Source of the DNA: Bacteroidales bacterium
GTDB taxonomy: Bacteria > Bacteroidota > Bacteroidia > Bacteroidales > F082
Length of the DNA: 34,484 nt
Reading direction: 5' to 3'
NCBI GenBank assembly: GCA_017549805.1
Contig: JAFYNJ010000023.1
Span: 1-34,484 of the forward strand
The notes beneath the pieces were generated by a model, which was given only the letters and a program-made list of their open reading frames with translations, was not told the origin of the DNA and searched no databases. This document shows positions 29,144 through 34,484 of this stretch, one piece after another. The position numbers and the translations under genes were made by a program. The stretch's first letter is position 1; each line of letters opens with the position of its first letter.

Positions 29144-30100
29144 TCAAATAATAATGTCAGATTCAAGCAAACTCTGATATTTCCTATACAATCGAACAAA
29201 AACTTCATCGATGAGTATCAACAACACAAAACGATAGAAATAATTCTGATTGCTGAATCCTTTATCAGCAATGGTTTTCAAAGAAGGTAAATCAGTTTGA
29301 TAAGAATTGGTATTATGAGCGCAGCGATTACGATGAACATAAACCACTTCTTCATAAAATTTTTGTAGTTTTGTTTCCAACAACCGGACATCGTTCATTG
29401 CTATCCATTCTGGTTTTAATATTTTGGGCCAACAGTTGCTAAACGCATCAAAATCAGCCTGCTTCCATAATACTATTTGAGTTGATGCCAGTCCGTTTTG
29501 AATAGAATGAATCAAACTATTAATAATAGCTTTCTTTTTCACACTAGCAATATGCTGGCGAAAATCCTCTTCAGGCAGGGATCTGCTTTTTAATCCGTTA
29601 ATAATTCTATCCTTCTCATCTTGGTTAATGCTCTTTCCCGTTTCTTTTTCTTTCTTTTTTATAATGGCTTGCGCTTGCTTTTTATTATTCTCCTCAATTT
29701 TCTTTTCCCATTTTTTTCTTTCCTTTTCCCATGTTTCCTGTTCGATTGTTATATCTTCCCAAAGTTGATACACCGAAAAGCCGGGCTGCATTTTTTGAAT
29801 TAGCTCTATAAGATCTTTGTAAATACTACATTTTTCATTGTAATTCGAGCATTCGCCGTAATTCTTCTTGTGCAACAAATCATAACGATAAGTATAATCG
29901 TTTGTAGCCAATTCCCAGGTAATGCACTTCATCTTCTGCTCCTGAGCTCCGGTCATACGGAGGAATAGCGACTGAAAAAAATACTCCCCTAACGGATAAG
30001 TTTCTACTCCTGTCTTAATTGAGGCACTTGCATTTATACCGTCACGCAGAATTTCTTTTAATGGCGTTGATATGAACTTGCCATGAACACTATTGTACAT
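29144..30100 (-). CDS. HEPN-domain protein (predicted RNase effector) paired with DUF262
   Basis: The product has 318 residues from the ATG at 30100; a TTG at 30118 is also possible. The C-terminal region shows the HEPN signature R-x4-H at Arg257-His262 within VYVHRNRCAHNTNS, followed by predicted helices (NYFYRFVLLILIDEVFVRLY), as expected for the second half of a HEPN bundle. HEPN proteins with this motif are metal-independent RNases used in toxin-antitoxin, abortive-infection and CRISPR systems. Residues about 120-175 form a highly charged coiled coil (WEKERKKWEKKIEENNKKQA). The start overlaps the end of the DUF262 gene by 11 bases, so the two are translated together. The DNA is visibly AT-rich compared with the rest of the window. 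The exact HEPN subfamily is not known to me. Confidence 0.75.
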   Translation of the reverse strand: MYNSVHGKFISTPLKEILRDGINASASIKTGVETYPLGEYFFQSLFLRMTGAQEQKMKCITWELATNDYTYRYDLLHKKNYGECSNYNEKCSIYKDLIELIQKMQPGFSVYQLWEDITIEQETWEKERKKWEKKIEENNKKQAQAIIKKKEKETGKSINQDEKDRIINGLKSRSLPEEDFRQHIASVKKKAIINSLIHSIQNGLASTQIVLWKQADFDAFSNCWPKILKPEWIAMNDVRLLETKLQKFYEEVVYVHRNRCAHNTNSYQTDLPSLKTIADKGFSNQNYFYRFVLLILIDEVFVRLYRKYQSLLESDIII

Positions 30101-31361
30101 GCTTTCCAACAATTTCAATTGATTTCAACAATCTTTCACGCAGATTCCCAAGGCGATTGGGTGATTTGGAATACTCCGCAGTATCACGTTTCTTTTTAAT
30201 CTCTTTAATCATTTGGTCAATCAATAAAGTTTTATCATCTTTAAGTTTTTTGCCGACAAACACCAAATAATAAATAAGCCCAAACAACCAATAATCGGCA
30301 TCAATCCACGAGGTGAAGGCATTGTCTTTATTCAGACCTAAACTTGGACTCAATGTGGAAATCGCATCATGAAGTTCAATAAAACGCTGTTTCCAGCATT
30401 CATCAGGGAATGTGGTTTCAAAATTAAATCCATCGAATTTCTTTTCATAGCTTTCTTGTTCCACACCAACAATGTACGATACATAGTCTGAATAGAATGA
30501 TTCTCGGGAAGAATAGGATGAATACCACTTCAATACTTTATCCTTATTCTTGGCATCTAAAATAGTGTATTGTGAAAGCACCGCCAAATACCTTACGAAG
30601 TCAATTTTTGTAAGTCTCATCTTTTCAAGCAATGTGATACCGCAAAGTACATCGGTTTCATCTTCAAGCTGACCTTCAAAATACTTCTGGTACTGCGACT
30701 TCATGTAATATAGCGATCGTCGACTTTCAACCACTGAAAGATGAGCACCTAAATAATTAATATTACGGAACAGTTGCGTATAGCTATTTTGTATTTCAAC
30801 CTCGTTATTACTTTCGGGAATAATATAGGAAAAGCCCAAATATGTTTTGTCGAAAAAATCGTCATTAAGACCAGCATAATTAAACTCATAGTATTTATCG
30901 TCAGAAGCCAGCCTTGCCCTTATTCGCTCAACTGTGTTCTCTGAAGGTTTATTTTCAAATAGTTTTCTAATAGTCCACTTGACTGGAATTTTCGACTTTG
31001 GAGCCGTTTCGGTCTCATCCACATCATCTTCAGAACTATCATCTCCAGATGCAATAACGTCATCTGTTTCGAACTTATCCAAATCAGGAACATAACCAAG
31101 AAACAGCAATAGAATAGTTGTAAGACGCTGTTGGCCATCGATAATCAAATTTGTGTGGACATTTTGAGCCTTTGAATTAAAGAGTGCCAAAGTAACTGGT
31201 GGAACAAACTGTTTCTCCGCAAATGACTTAATGAGTCGTTTCATGTCTGGCTCTTTCCATACAAAGCTTCGTTGGTATTGCGGCAGCACAATATTCTCGC
31301 TCAACATCAGTTGTAGCCAATGTTTCAATGAGTATTCTCCATAGTATGTTCTACTATTCAT
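30090..31361 (-). CDS. DUF262 domain protein (GmrSD N-terminal-like), no HNH domain seen
   Basis: The product has 423 residues. The DUF262 signature is at the N-terminus: IVLPQYQRSFVWKEPDMKRL (24-43) and NLIIDGQQRLTTILLLFLGY (71-90, with DGQQR). DUF262 is a ParB/Srx-like fold found at the N-terminus of GmrSD type IV restriction enzymes, where it binds or hydrolyses nucleotide. An acidic stretch follows (about 100-117). GmrSD-type proteins continue into a DUF1524 HNH nuclease, but no His-based HNH motif is evident in the C-terminal half. It overlaps the HEPN gene downstream, which suggests that this protein senses and the HEPN protein cuts. It is back to back with the primase/RT pair. Confidence 0.85.
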   Translation of the reverse strand: MNSRTYYGEYSLKHWLQLMLSENIVLPQYQRSFVWKEPDMKRLIKSFAEKQFVPPVTLALFNSKAQNVHTNLIIDGQQRLTTILLLFLGYVPDLDKFETDDVIASGDDSSEDDVDETETAPKSKIPVKWTIRKLFENKPSENTVERIRARLASDDKYYEFNYAGLNDDFFDKTYLGFSYIIPESNNEVEIQNSYTQLFRNINYLGAHLSVVESRRSLYYMKSQYQKYFEGQLEDETDVLCGITLLEKMRLTKIDFVRYLAVLSQYTILDAKNKDKVLKWYSSYSSRESFYSDYVSYIVGVEQESYEKKFDGFNFETTFPDECWKQRFIELHDAISTLSPSLGLNKDNAFTSWIDADYWLFGLIYYLVFVGKKLKDDKTLLIDQMIKEIKKKRDTAEYSKSPNRLGNLRERLLKSIEIVGKHVQ

Positions 31362-31733
31362 ATCAATTTCAAATTTAATACTATATATGTCCCCACGTTG
31401 AACTACTTATGTTTTTAGGTTAAATAGGCTCACACTTTGTGTGTTAATATGGCAAAAATACAAATTGTTTCTCATCTGGTAATGTTTTACCTGTTTTTTA
31501 CGTTTTAACTTTTAATGTGAAACAACGGCTTACCAGTACCTAGTTATAGACAATTCTCACGAGAATCTCAAGTTTTAGGATAACAGAATTGCCAAACAAT
31601 GGTTTATTACTATCTTTGCGGTCGGAAAAATCTGCATTACTCCGAGCAAAAATGACCAAATACCCCTTAAGAAAAGTTGGCTTGAATAATAAATGAACAA
31701 CTTATTTGACAGAAACCTGTATCCCATAATAGT
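31362..31733. promoter_or_regulatory. Divergent control region between DUF262-HEPN and primase-RT modules
   Basis: On the plus strand TTG (31589-31591), 19 bases, then TATCTTTG (31611-31618) is a perfect promoter for the primase/RT side. On the minus strand the best -7 candidate is TATTTTTG at 31453-31460, with no clear -33. Two short inverted repeats may be operators: CACAC-TTT-GTGTG at 31431-31443 and TTCTC-AC-GAGAA at 31554-31565, the latter 23 bases upstream of the plus -33 box. The transcript leader (about 31623-31733) contains a TCGGA/TCCGA pair (31622-31626, 31641-31645) and two small ORFs. Confidence 0.55.
31652..31696 (+). CDS. Leader ORF 1 (14 codons), coupled to leader ORF 2
   Basis: The ORF encodes MTKYPLRKVGLNNK and ends in TGA at 31694-31696, overlapping the ATG of the next small ORF (31693-31695) as ATGA. 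It begins about 28 bases after the predicted transcript start. Its first eight bases (ATGACCAA) are the same as those of the primase gene. It is basic and has no known family. It may regulate translation of the downstream genes rather than make a functional peptide. Confidence 0.35.
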   Translation: MTKYPLRKVGLNNK

Positions 31734-31737
31734 ATGA
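31693..31737 (+). CDS. Leader ORF 2 (14 codons), coupled to the primase start
   Basis: The ORF encodes MNNLFDRNLYPIIV. Its TGA (31735-31737) overlaps the primase ATG (31734-31736) as ATGA, and its own ATG overlaps the stop of leader ORF 1. Ribosomes finishing this ORF could restart on the primase. No homologue is recognised. Its codon content is ordinary, and it could be real or a chance by-product of the overlaps. Confidence 0.4.
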   Translation: MNNLFDRNLYPIIV

Positions 31738-32759
31738 CCAAGGAAGAATTACTTGACGTTTTGGTTTCATGGGTATCCTCCACTACCTCAAAACATATTG
31801 CCCATCAATCCCTGCGCGCGGCATTGGCGGCGATTCGCAACGGAGAAAAGAAGCAGGATATTCTACGTATGCGTGCTTCGGTAGAGGCCAATCACGACGA
31901 ATATGACCGCATAAAAAGCACCCTGCCAGCAAATATATTCGCAGGCAAGTTCGCAGGCGGCCATGCCGTCACTGACATTGTAGAGTACAATCGTCTGATG
32001 ACACTCGATATCGACAAACTGGATGCCAAGCAACTAATCTCGGTAAAGCAAAACCTTAAAGAAGATCCTTATGTGTTTGCCTTCTGGCTGTCGCCATCTG
32101 GCAAAGGTTACAAAGGGCTAGTGTTGCTTGATTATGGCAATATTGATTTAATGGATAAGAAATATTGGCACCGAGAGGCGTTTAACCAGCTGTCAAAATA
32201 CTTCAAGGGACATTACAACATTGAACTTGACATCAAGTGCAAGGATGTGCCGAGGCTTTGTTTCGTCTCCTATGACCCTAATTTGTGTGTGAAAGACGAG
32301 GTGGTGGCATTCCCTGTGGAGCCTATAGAAGAAGTGAAGGAAGCAAAGAAAGAGGCCGAACATCACCGCAAAGCCTTTAGAACATATAATGGGAACAACT
32401 ATCGACGTAACGAACCCGGACGTAACAATCAGTTTGCCCGAAAAACAGTGAACTCAATTATTAAATATCTTGAAAAGCGCAATATCTCCATCACCCATTC
32501 TTATTATGAATGGTTCAGCGTAGCTATGGCCATAGTGTCGGCCTTTAACTACGATGTGGGCGAGAACTACTACCTCCGACTATGTCGCCTCGACGGGCCT
32601 CGCCACGACGAGGAGGCAAGCCGTTCAATGCTGCGCTACTGCTACGAGCACAGTAATTATGAAATCACAATAGGAACACTCATTTATTTCGCACAATGTA
32701 AAGGATATAAAATGGCACAGAAGGCAGTAACCATAGAGGATACCACAACGGATGATTAG
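31734..32759 (+). CDS. BT4734-like primase-polymerase (PrimPol) protein
   Basis: The product has 341 residues. The N-terminal region (about 40-200) has the BT4734/VirE_N pattern related to archaeo-eukaryotic primases: LMTLDIDKLD with Asp92 and Asp94 as the probable metal ligands, FAFWLSPSGKGYKGLVLLDY (115-134) for nucleotide binding, and DVPRLCFVSYDPNLCV. A basic linker (about 208-240) leads to a C-terminal helical domain (YYEWFSVAMAIVSAFNYDVG, then RLCRLDGPRHDEEASRSMLR), as in primase C-terminal PriCT domains. No VirE-type P-loop helicase follows, unlike in many mobile-element relatives. It would prime or extend nucleic acid. It stands 134 bases upstream of the reverse transcriptase, on the same strand and probably the same transcript. 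Confidence 0.82.
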   Translation: MTKEELLDVLVSWVSSTTSKHIAHQSLRAALAAIRNGEKKQDILRMRASVEANHDEYDRIKSTLPANIFAGKFAGGHAVTDIVEYNRLMTLDIDKLDAKQLISVKQNLKEDPYVFAFWLSPSGKGYKGLVLLDYGNIDLMDKKYWHREAFNQLSKYFKGHYNIELDIKCKDVPRLCFVSYDPNLCVKDEVVAFPVEPIEEVKEAKKEAEHHRKAFRTYNGNNYRRNEPGRNNQFARKTVNSIIKYLEKRNISITHSYYEWFSVAMAIVSAFNYDVGENYYLRLCRLDGPRHDEEASRSMLRYCYEHSNYEITIGTLIYFAQCKGYKMAQKAVTIEDTTTDD

Positions 32760-32893
32760 TATCTGTTGAGGCCTACGTACGGGCGGGGTCAGCAAGTTTC
32801 TTCCACTTCTCCGCCAACAAAGGAAGAACATTTTTTGTTTCGGATTATCTCTTTTTTCGGTGATGTCGTCCTTTTGTGCCATTCTTTTCAAAC
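32760..32893 (+). other. Spacer between primase and reverse transcriptase genes
   Basis: These 134 bases have stops in the RT frame (TGA at 32861-32863) and no recognisable gene. The first 30 bases are GC-rich with a CGTACG palindrome; the rest is T-rich. No exact -7 box was seen, so the RT is probably read from the primase promoter. It could hold a structured RNA used by the RT, which is conjecture. Confidence 0.4.
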
Positions 32894-34484
32894 ATGCAAG
32901 CATTTCTTGATTACATATCATTTATGGCCGTTGCTGAAATCCTCATCAGCAAACGTGTTCAGTTGGCTGACAAGCGCCATAAAAAGCACATGCTTCACCT
33001 TATGTCGCCCAAGATGAGTTTGGGAATTCTTACAGAGGCTGATCGACAATTGCTGTCGTTGTTGCCATCAAGGAAACATTGGGTGACTCTTGGTGAAAAA
33101 GGTCGTTATCGCAAAACTGAAGACGGTGCTCATTTACAGCGTAGGTCTGCGTCGCAGTGTAACAAGATGGCCATCCAATGGACAATTGAAAAGGATATGT
33201 CTAGGGCAGTAAAGCCCGCTTATCTCCTAAAGTTGGAAACTTTTGTGACAAAACTTCAAAACCGCGTGAAGGACATTGAATTTAGGTTTGATGCCCCTAT
33301 GGTGTTCCCCGAAAAGAAAGACGAGTCGAGTTGCCGCCCTTTGTGCAAGTTTACTAATTTGGAGGATTCAGTTATTATCATCTTGGCAAACAAATACCTC
33401 ACAGAATTATTCAATAATCAATTCTACGATGAGTCACTTGCATTCCGCAGCAAACGCACATATCACGGCCAAAAGGATTATGTAACCTCTCATCACGATG
33501 CCATAGCCCGCATCAAGGAATACAGAAAGCAGATGTCGGATCGCAATCTTTATGTTTCAGAGTGTGACCTCAAAAAATTCTACGATACAGTGAGTCACAA
33601 CGTGGTCCGTAAGTGCTATCACATGCTGTTGCGCAAAGTAGCAAAAGAAAATCCAGGGCTGCAGTTCGATGAGATCAATCGAGTTTTTGAGGCGTATCTC
33701 AGATGTTACACCTTCCCAAAAAATGTATATTGCAAGAATCATTGTCCCGATTTTTGGGAAGAGAACCATATCGATGGAAAATGTCGTAGTTTCAAATGGG
33801 TGAAAGATGAGTTGCTGGACAACGGCATTGCCAAATCGCAGAGTGGTCTAATGCGAATGGGAATTGGCGTACCGCAAGGCGGTGCACTTTCGGGTCTGAT
33901 AGCCAACATGGTGCTCAACTCCGTTGACCACGAAGTGATGAGTCACACAAAAGAGAATGACTTGTATCTCCGCTATTGCGATGACATGATTATTGTTTCC
34001 ACTTGTCGCCAACGTTGCCACAAGTTGTTCTTTACATATTATAACGGAGCCAAGAAACTTAAGTTGGTGCCTCATGAACCAGAGAAACGACTTGAGTTCA
34101 ATAATCCAGAGTTTTGGAAAAGCAAAAGCAAAAATGCCTACCTGTGGGCAATGGGACAGACTGATGCCGCCGAGTGGATTGGCTTTGTAGGTTATGAGAT
34201 GCGACGTGATGGAATGATCCGTATCCGACACAAGTCGTTCCGTAAAGAGCTAGACAAGCAGAAGAGTGTTGTGTTTGAAAAAGTGTTGGATAAGATAAAT
34301 GGGAAAGATCGCGTTTCGGACGGTTCCTTGTATGGGTCACTTGAACGCAAGCTTGTATCAATGTCGGTGGGAAAAGTGGCTGTTTGGAATGCCAAATTTA
34401 TGGAAAGTGAAATGTGTTGGACTGACGGTTTTAGGGAATTAGAAATGAACCCAGTGCTTTCAAGGCAGTTGCATGAATTAGACC
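32894..34484 (+). CDS. Reverse transcriptase, defence-type or group II-like (C-terminus beyond window)
   Basis: An open frame of 530 codons runs from the ATG at 32894 off the right edge; I read each codon and found no stop. The RT core is complete and intact. An RPL...LANKYLTELFNNQFYDESLAF segment (about 143-175) resembles RT motif 2. Motif A is SECDLKKFYDTVSH (Asp225, Asp231). Motif B is GVPQGGALSGLIANMVLN (325-342). Motif C is LRYCDDMIIVS with the catalytic YCDD at 361-364. Motif D follows, and a thumb-side WIGFVGYEMRRDGMIRI. There is an N-terminal extension of about 140 residues. No maturase or HNH domain is seen so far. With a PrimPol next door it resembles the unknown-group (UG/DRT) antiphage RTs more than an intron RT, but the group is not assigned. 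M11 (32924) is an alternative start. Confidence 0.93.
   Translation, partial: MQAFLDYISFMAVAEILISKRVQLADKRHKKHMLHLMSPKMSLGILTEADRQLLSLLPSRKHWVTLGEKGRYRKTEDGAHLQRRSASQCNKMAIQWTIEKDMSRAVKPAYLLKLETFVTKLQNRVKDIEFRFDAPMVFPEKKDESSCRPLCKFTNLEDSVIIILANKYLTELFNNQFYDESLAFRSKRTYHGQKDYVTSHHDAIARIKEYRKQMSDRNLYVSECDLKKFYDTVSHNVVRKCYHMLLRKVAKENPGLQFDEINRVFEAYLRCYTFPKNVYCKNHCPDFWEENHIDGKCRSFKWVKDELLDNGIAKSQSGLMRMGIGVPQGGALSGLIANMVLNSVDHEVMSHTKENDLYLRYCDDMIIVSTCRQRCHKLFFTYYNGAKKLKLVPHEPEKRLEFNNPEFWKSKSKNAYLWAMGQTDAAEWIGFVGYEMRRDGMIRIRHKSFRKELDKQKSVVFEKVLDKINGKDRVSDGSLYGSLERKLVSMSVGKVAVWNAKFMESEMCWTDGFRELEMNPVLSRQLHELD

Follow-up and report, generated by a model that had tools for sequence, protein, structure and literature searches.

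What do a reverse transcriptase (RT) and a primase-polymerase do when they are encoded side by side? The question is raised by the end of a 34,484-nucleotide stretch of a Bacteroidales bacterium genome (GenBank assembly GCA_017549805.1, 33 contigs; contig JAFYNJ010000023.1, our C26), referred to in its entirety as the window, where a PrimPol gene (31734..32759) is followed on the same plus strand by an RT gene that begins at 32894 and is cut off by the contig end at 34484. A first-pass annotation, made from the letters alone, proposed a nucleic-acid-synthesising defence system, and we find both open reading frames (ORFs) where it placed them; the structured RNA that lies between and across the two genes had escaped it. 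Our preferred reading, which we hold to be fairly probable, sees in the cassette a defence-type RT system of group UG39 with three parts: a PrimPol, a structured non-coding RNA (ncRNA) immediately ahead of the RT gene, and the RT itself. The system would work like the defence-associated reverse transcriptases (DRTs) DRT2, DRT9 and DRT10 with the PrimPol as an accessory polymerase. What computation shows is the RNA element, whose helices covary in 38 relatives and which stands before the RT regardless of the direction of the PrimPol, and the linkage of the genes.

A covarying RNA precedes UG39 reverse transcriptases

The family was sampled by a genome scan that found 147 relatives, the best 80 of which were kept (four of the five seeds had a PrimPol). 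The RT tree comprises 77 RTs, namely the kept relatives, L008 and the window, minus the copies or near-copies L001, L006, L012, L020, L024, L055 and L066, with L171–L187 all excluded. Three loci with too little upstream sequence (L060, L068 and L073) were dropped from the PrimPol count, which leaves 74 assessable loci; in L050 and L084 the tandem call was made from an incomplete PrimPol at the contig edge, L052 has its PrimPol divided between two frames, and interrupted RTs occur in L026 and L058.

Of 74 loci, 55 have a closing helix at or below −20 kcal/mol at the site immediately before the RT, compared with 5 of 70 at a control site 350 bases upstream and none of 69 inside the RT gene, the same best-duplex choice of segment having been applied at the site and at both controls. 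Fold z-scores below −3 occur in 52 loci at the site versus 0 and 5 at the upstream and intragenic controls, respectively, and scores below −2 in 66 versus 11 and 19. In a separate duplex test, which excluded duplicates, L067, L068, L080 (uncertain start) and loci with fewer than 330 bases upstream, the final 45 bases before the RT pair with upstream sequence at −20 kcal/mol or lower in 61 of 73 loci, whereas shuffled sequences do so in 14 of 219 cases and swapped arms (a control helped by the relatedness of the loci) in 30 of 219.

A structure-free MAFFT alignment of 16 loci gave 31 pairs in RNAalifold, 14 of them with changes on both sides. Covariance model R1, built from a trimmed version of this 16-locus set and searched against 81 chosen sources (0.8 Mb), matched all 16 training loci and the near-copy L020, together with unseen RT-upstream sites in L085 (E = 6e-8), L042 (6e-7), L029 (5e-6), L015 (4e-4), L023, L024 and L055 (0.003 each) and L026 (0.009); it later matched L172 (1e-9) and L173, a copy of L015. 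Model R2 was made from 27 matches and searched in 64 chosen sources. Its 24 best matches were all on-site, 13 of them unseen (seven with E < 0.02) and 11 already in the R2 alignment or near-copies of its members (L051 among them), and the first match elsewhere came at E = 1.8. The unseen ones are L176 (1.3e-20), L177 (1.9e-21), L034 (7e-7), L047 (8e-6), L018 (1e-5), L022 (9e-4), the divergent L058 (0.015), L084 (0.06) and five more at E 0.3–1.7. Pair cells in which both partners changed while pairing was retained number 184 across 38 loci (shuffled 50.2 ± 7.7, slid at most 55) and 110 across 27 loci (shuffled 30.7, slid at most 27), counts that lean toward structure since the alignments (A8 and A11) were fitted to RNA models. 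In the divergent clade alone, 12 of 51 pairs show both-side changes.

Rfam returned nothing at gathering level in 15 scanned loci except tRNAs, nothing up to E = 1 in the window from 31300 to 34484, and on bases 1–3000 of contig C12 two microRNA models far under threshold, which we take as chance. Our literature search met no paper describing an RNA of the UG39/PrimPol system, most subscription papers being out of its reach and the UG39-defining paper possibly mentioning one. The pairing of PrimPol and RT is already known; the RNA and its anatomy are, to us, the new part.

The RNA copy in the window

The window carries a candidate structured ncRNA of about 172 nt at 32712..32883 (plus strand, like all of its parts), whose 5' portion shares 48 bases with the end of the PrimPol ORF and which was delimited by its terminal duplex, fold z-score and the RNAs at the same site in homologues. 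The closing helix P1 joins ATGGCACAGAAGG (32712..32724) to CCTTTTGTGCCAT (32870..32882) through 13 pairs, one of them G-U. An internal helix read from the sequence and its folds pairs GGCGGGG (32782..32788) with CTCCGCC (32809..32815), and at this place L013, L016 and L017 appear, by eye, to carry a differently spelled helix. The segment 32840..32859, which corresponds in position to the UCAGUAU loop conserved in other UG39 RNAs, is a weak candidate template region suggested by the folds, unpaired in the centroid fold and partly paired in the minimum-energy fold; a direct-repeat test on the window copy was not significant (p = 0.30).

The fold z-score of the window RNA is −2.91, or −3.32 with boundaries set by the best duplex, and those of L011, L013, L016, L017, L014 and L015 range from −2.7 to −4.8 on segments set by the closing duplex, a choice that inflates the −3.32 and the six relatives' scores. 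L015 lies in the same RT branch as the window (support 85), and R1 matches it, as given above. The case for a structured ncRNA in the family comes from the models, pair changes and control sites, and that for the window copy only from position, helix and fold. The homology of the window RNA to the modelled family is probable and not proven, because neither R1 nor R2 matches the window, L013, L016 or L017.

Placement of the RNA relative to the genes

In divergent loci, where the PrimPol points away from the RT, the folded element with its closing helix stays on the RT strand, directly before the RT. The sequence TAnnTTTG is the Bacteroidota-type −7 box consensus. Of 15 divergent loci, 7 carry it immediately ahead of the RNA (12 when TTTA is accepted as well), versus none of the 55 on the tandem list (which includes L186, where no PrimPol was found). 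In 45 of 50 tandem cases the RNA starts inside the PrimPol ORF and, given also that no such box precedes it, it is probably part of a PrimPol-RT transcript. The idea of one promoter for both genes, put forward in the first-pass annotation, fits the tandem loci and fails for the 14 divergent ones.

The overlap with the coding sequence varies: the 5' half of the RNA is PrimPol-coding in L019, L028, L036, L040 and L044, and all of it is coding in L085. RNA sequence and pairing are kept alike where they are PrimPol-coding and where they are non-coding. In L085 the PrimPol ORF (L085:3830-5017) overlaps the RT start by 17 bases, placing the entire element inside coding sequence.

This placement is also what one would expect of a cis-acting leader that controls translation of the RT, for example by the RT binding its own leader, the RNA then being neither template nor scaffold of a ribonucleoprotein (RNP). 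With the exception of L068, every duplex-examined locus has the 3' strand of P1 ending 0–19 nt short of the RT start codon, where it could mask initiation, and inclusion in a PrimPol-RT transcript would suit a leader equally. However, at 140–230 nt, and with multiple helices as well as unpaired loops that are conserved, the UG39 upstream RNAs are large for a switch, and working ncRNAs occupy the same place in DRT2 and DRT9. We regard the leader as a somewhat unlikely explanation.

The PrimPol and its linkage to the reverse transcriptase

The PrimPol (31734..32759, plus strand, 341 amino acids) combines a BT4734-like archaeo-eukaryotic primase domain (Pfam BT4734-like_N, E = 1.9e-29) with PriCT_2 (E = 1.1e-4), and matches the PADLOC model RTasVirE-PriCT2 (PDLC03818) near full length at 6.2e-114. 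In the BT4734 family of archaeo-eukaryotic primases, motif I reads hhhDhD/E, motif II sxH and motif III hD/E (PMC5862659). The window PrimPol family has motif I (Asp92 and Asp94) and motif III (D166) invariant in 59 of 59 aligned homologues; SPSxxGxK is likewise present in 59/59, bearing out the earlier observation that the DxD and SPSGKG motifs are intact, and His146 in 57/59. A PrimPol profile found no credible match among PDB sequences. The CRISPR-associated PrimPol type B (NCBIfam NF040562) is a related domain, to which the window protein scores 68.6 bits, under the cut-off of 200, and a Pfam scan of 15 window ORFs found no Cas family.

A PrimPol adjoins the RT in 63 of the 74 assessable loci, upstream in tandem in 49 and divergently in 14; close RT homologues thus do keep the primase beside them, and the link is stable, as had been proposed. 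Tandem genes are mostly separated by 100–180 bases (extremes −17 and 227), a gap that is long for an operon and conserved. On the RT tree the arrangement changes just four times, a number that none of 200 shuffles equalled or undercut, with near relatives favouring such clustering. The adjacency is not a matter of chance, though the loci counted derive from the 80 best of 147 relatives and all but one of the five seeds carried the PrimPol. It is also not a new arrangement, as the first-pass annotation had supposed: the pair is already catalogued, since PADLOC has models for both genes (RT_UG39 and RTasVirE-PriCT2), and the UG39 group itself was reportedly defined by Mestre et al. in 2022. VirE_N domains were found beside about 46% (elsewhere 45%) of UG28b RTs, going by the accessible text of PMC8934634, and we infer that UG28b is UG39.

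Fourteen of the 77 tree RTs show no PrimPol, a number that includes L060, L068 and L073, whose upstream sequence is too short to judge. The 11 assessable ones form two clades, and the seven PrimPol-less RTs scanned (L062, L074, L077, L079, L080, L088 and L089) are UG39 by profile.

Upstream of several of these RTs (L008, L062, L074, L077, L079, L086 and L090, together with L186) the strongly conserved sequence TTTCCATAA..ATACAA lies within 300 bases of the gene and is followed (in L186 in part) by a short TCGAT/ATTCG repeat, a candidate telomerase-like template. The neighbours of L077, L079 and L086 vary: by eye, an ATPase-like gene lies upstream in L079 and L086, and GIY-YIG-like and SMC-like ORFs lie downstream of the RT in L077.

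The model with which the first-pass annotation explained the pair was that the PrimPol makes a primer, or copies the complementary DNA (cDNA), for the RT, which leaves the intergenic RNA outside the machine. A PrimPol with an invariant DxD beside the RT in 63/74 loci speaks for that model. It does not account for an RNA that is conserved and covarying and that, with its closing helix, precedes the RT even where the PrimPol is inverted, nor for UG39 clades that have no PrimPol, and we consider it quite unlikely. A primer supplied by the PrimPol is particularly doubtful in view of the two PrimPol-less clades and of the conserved Ser-Tyr at the C-terminus of the RT.

Class and priming of the reverse transcriptase

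The RT (32894..34484, plus strand) is truncated by the contig end, and its remaining codons and stop lie on contig C12 (L003:1-305), which opens with the same 141 bases that end the window. Its start agrees with homologue starts. Counted from the matching start, the uncut RT of L011, 98% identical to that of the window, is 584 codons long; it ends almost as the window RT joined to C12 does, with the same tail, HSYYYQFAK. The protein matches Pfam RVT_1 (E = 9.2e-13), and motifs B (VPQGGALS) and C (YCDD) are present, in line with the earlier description of its motifs as intact. Its best PADLOC model is RT_UG39 (E = 5.6e-169, 561 bits, residues 10–536 of 536), far ahead of Drt2 at 2.5e-23, which places it, as first suggested, among the defence-type UG/DRT enzymes; RT_UG39 is also the top PADLOC model for 15 scanned homologues.

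One alternative explanation of the locus is an RT of the group II intron type that has the PrimPol beside it by accident, and it draws on two results: the group II maturase model of NCBIfam (77.8 bits for the L011 RT) exceeds Drt2 (68.4 bits), and group II type RTs top the PDB profile search. However, 77.8 bits falls well below that model's cut-off of 300, the UG39 model scores 561 bits, Rfam scans of the window end, bases 1–3000 of C12 and the scanned loci gave no intron RNA, and the PrimPol is linked in 63 of 74 loci. We rejected the candidate, whose probability we regard as negligible.

A retron-like element, in which the closing helix would be a1/a2 and the RNA msr-msd, is another alternative, as an RNA upstream of an RT with complementary closing ends does resemble a retron. 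VTG and NAxxH are signatures of retron RTs. They occur in only 2 and 1 of 66 UG39 RTs, respectively, and the best NCBIfam retron model reaches 38 bits against a cut-off of 235; this alternative is in our judgement very unlikely.

Generic RT and CRISPR-RT models aside, the PADLOC runners-up listed for UG39 RTs are mostly Drt2, Drt9, UG17/DRT10, UG19 and Drt3a. DRT2, DRT9, DRT10 and Drt3a are called RNA-templated class 2 enzymes in the accessible parts of PMC12632851 and PMC13174585. Class 2 membership of the UG39 RTs, as read from their sequences, is our best guess: the named runners-up are mainly class 2 DRTs, yet group II types outrank Drt2 in other searches. The tail of these RTs is divergent except for a Ser-Tyr near the end, with Ser576 in 65 and Tyr577 in 63 of 66, which resembles the protein-priming tails of DRT9 and DRT10. 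By analogy with these enzymes, the UG39 system is probably RNA-templated and protein-primed.

Genomic context and distribution

On the minus strand, at 29144..31361, the window carries a divergent pair, a GmrSD_N protein with a partner assigned to no family, identified from the ORFs, Pfam and PADLOC and lying outside the cassette. The GmrSD_N protein overlaps the unrecognised 324-amino-acid partner, and the two are possibly a two-gene defence unit. Downstream of the RT, on C12, an ATPase (L003:1176-2480) matches the PADLOC candidate defence family PDC-S01 (4.3e-112). Near relatives of the window are L011 and L012, labelled Bacteroidales bacterium and bacterium F082. Their similarity to it (92%) starts only at 31763, 29 bases inside the PrimPol ORF, and downstream covers the RT and ends some 30 bases after its stop, with patches resuming on C12 for L012; by eye, the upstream neighbours in L011 are a gene matching the defence models Orf5/HEC-06 and an ATPase-like gene. 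Overall, the window locus has the appearance of a cassette within a defence neighbourhood.

UG39 is uncommon. At 1e-20 it was found in 6 of 395 sampled genomes of the phylum, the window's own included (one of the six, L009, is weak and probably belongs to another group). At 1e-60 it was found in 4 of 393 genomes of the order and 3 of 173 of the family (both again including the window's own), in 12 of 296 in the family of genome G012 and in 2 of 71 in that of G629. A phage-borne system was considered and rejected: tblastn against phages at 1e-20 gave no match, viral contigs gave weak RT matches only (best 3e-10), and plasmids a single partial match.

Discussion

PADLOC-DB 2.0 describes DRT UG39 and RTasVirE-PriCT2, which both window proteins match near full length, through proteins only; what we add is the structured RNA, the divergent arrangement and the PrimPol-less clades. 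Among characterised systems, as described in the accessible text of PMC12483538, DRT9 (UG28) shares with UG39 an RNA immediately upstream of the RT, conserved tyrosines in the C-terminal tail, from which DRT9 primes, and, if our guess at the class of UG39 holds, a class 2 RT; it differs in consisting of RT and RNA, sometimes with a SLATT protein, and in its poly-U template, whereas UG39 has a PrimPol and an RNA that is only a candidate template. DRT10 (UG17), to judge from the available portion of PMC12632851, has features that UG39 shares or may share, namely a class 2 RT, a 137-nt ncRNA with a large central stem, a C-terminal Ser/Tyr primer and a tripartite operon. Its partner is a SLATT protein, its RNA lies upstream of the SLATT gene, and its A-B-A' template pattern is weak in UG39. 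DRT7 (UG10) is alike in that its RT works with a primase-polymerase, but is a single-protein RT-PrimPol fusion with preprint evidence for protein-templated synthesis, and the part of PMC13213688 at hand names no ncRNA.

In the mechanism that we envisage for the UG39 system, the RT would bind the upstream RNA as an RNP, copy an RNA loop into cDNA, repetitively as in DRT2, DRT9 and DRT10, and prime this synthesis from its own C-terminal Ser-Tyr. The PrimPol would then act on the cDNA, most likely as a second-strand polymerase or extender, and the resulting DNA would block phage growth or kill the infected cell. In its fullest form this would be a tripartite immune polymerase, in which the RT copies the RNA loop to protein-linked repeat cDNA and a separate PrimPol makes it double-stranded, so that UG39 would be an RNA-templated DRT equipped with a primase-polymerase for the second strand; we put this version forward tentatively, as a possibility.

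Several points weigh against the UG39 RNA-RT system as we read it, beginning with the fitted alignments behind the pair counts. The first off-site match of R1 (L063, E = 0.08) outranks the weak on-site matches in L043, L051, L032 and L018. Besides the window RNA, L013, L016 and L017, the two models miss 12 of 14 divergent loci (only L051, from the R2 training set, and L058 are recognised) and every PrimPol-less locus searched, and a common origin of all RT-upstream RNAs, those of the window, the divergent loci and the PrimPol-less loci included, is a hypothesis. The MAFFT/RNAalifold alignment of PrimPol-less loci gave five pairs and no both-side change, and the case for an RNA there thus consists of sequence conservation and single-locus duplexes. 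A telomerase-like or A-B-A' repeat template is weak, with 9 of 82 loci at p ≤ 0.05 (the clearest repeats being one of 6 bases in L053 and of 5 bases in L077, L079, L086 and L090). As for the proteins, the NCBIfam and PDB profile searches rank group II type RTs above Drt2, the canonical primase motif II (sxH) was not seen in the PrimPols on inspection by eye, and the absence of the PrimPol from 11 of 74 loci means that it is not essential to all UG39 RTs.

Class 2 UG RTs write DNA from small RNAs, and more of them have been suggested to do so (PMC12632851, accessible text). The second strand is credited to a cellular polymerase in DRT9 and to a second RT in DRT3 (PMC13174585). With a defined RNA, UG39, until now two orphan genes, becomes a system open to reconstitution, in which a PrimPol encoded apart from the RT gives a natural way to test how the second strand of such cDNA is made.

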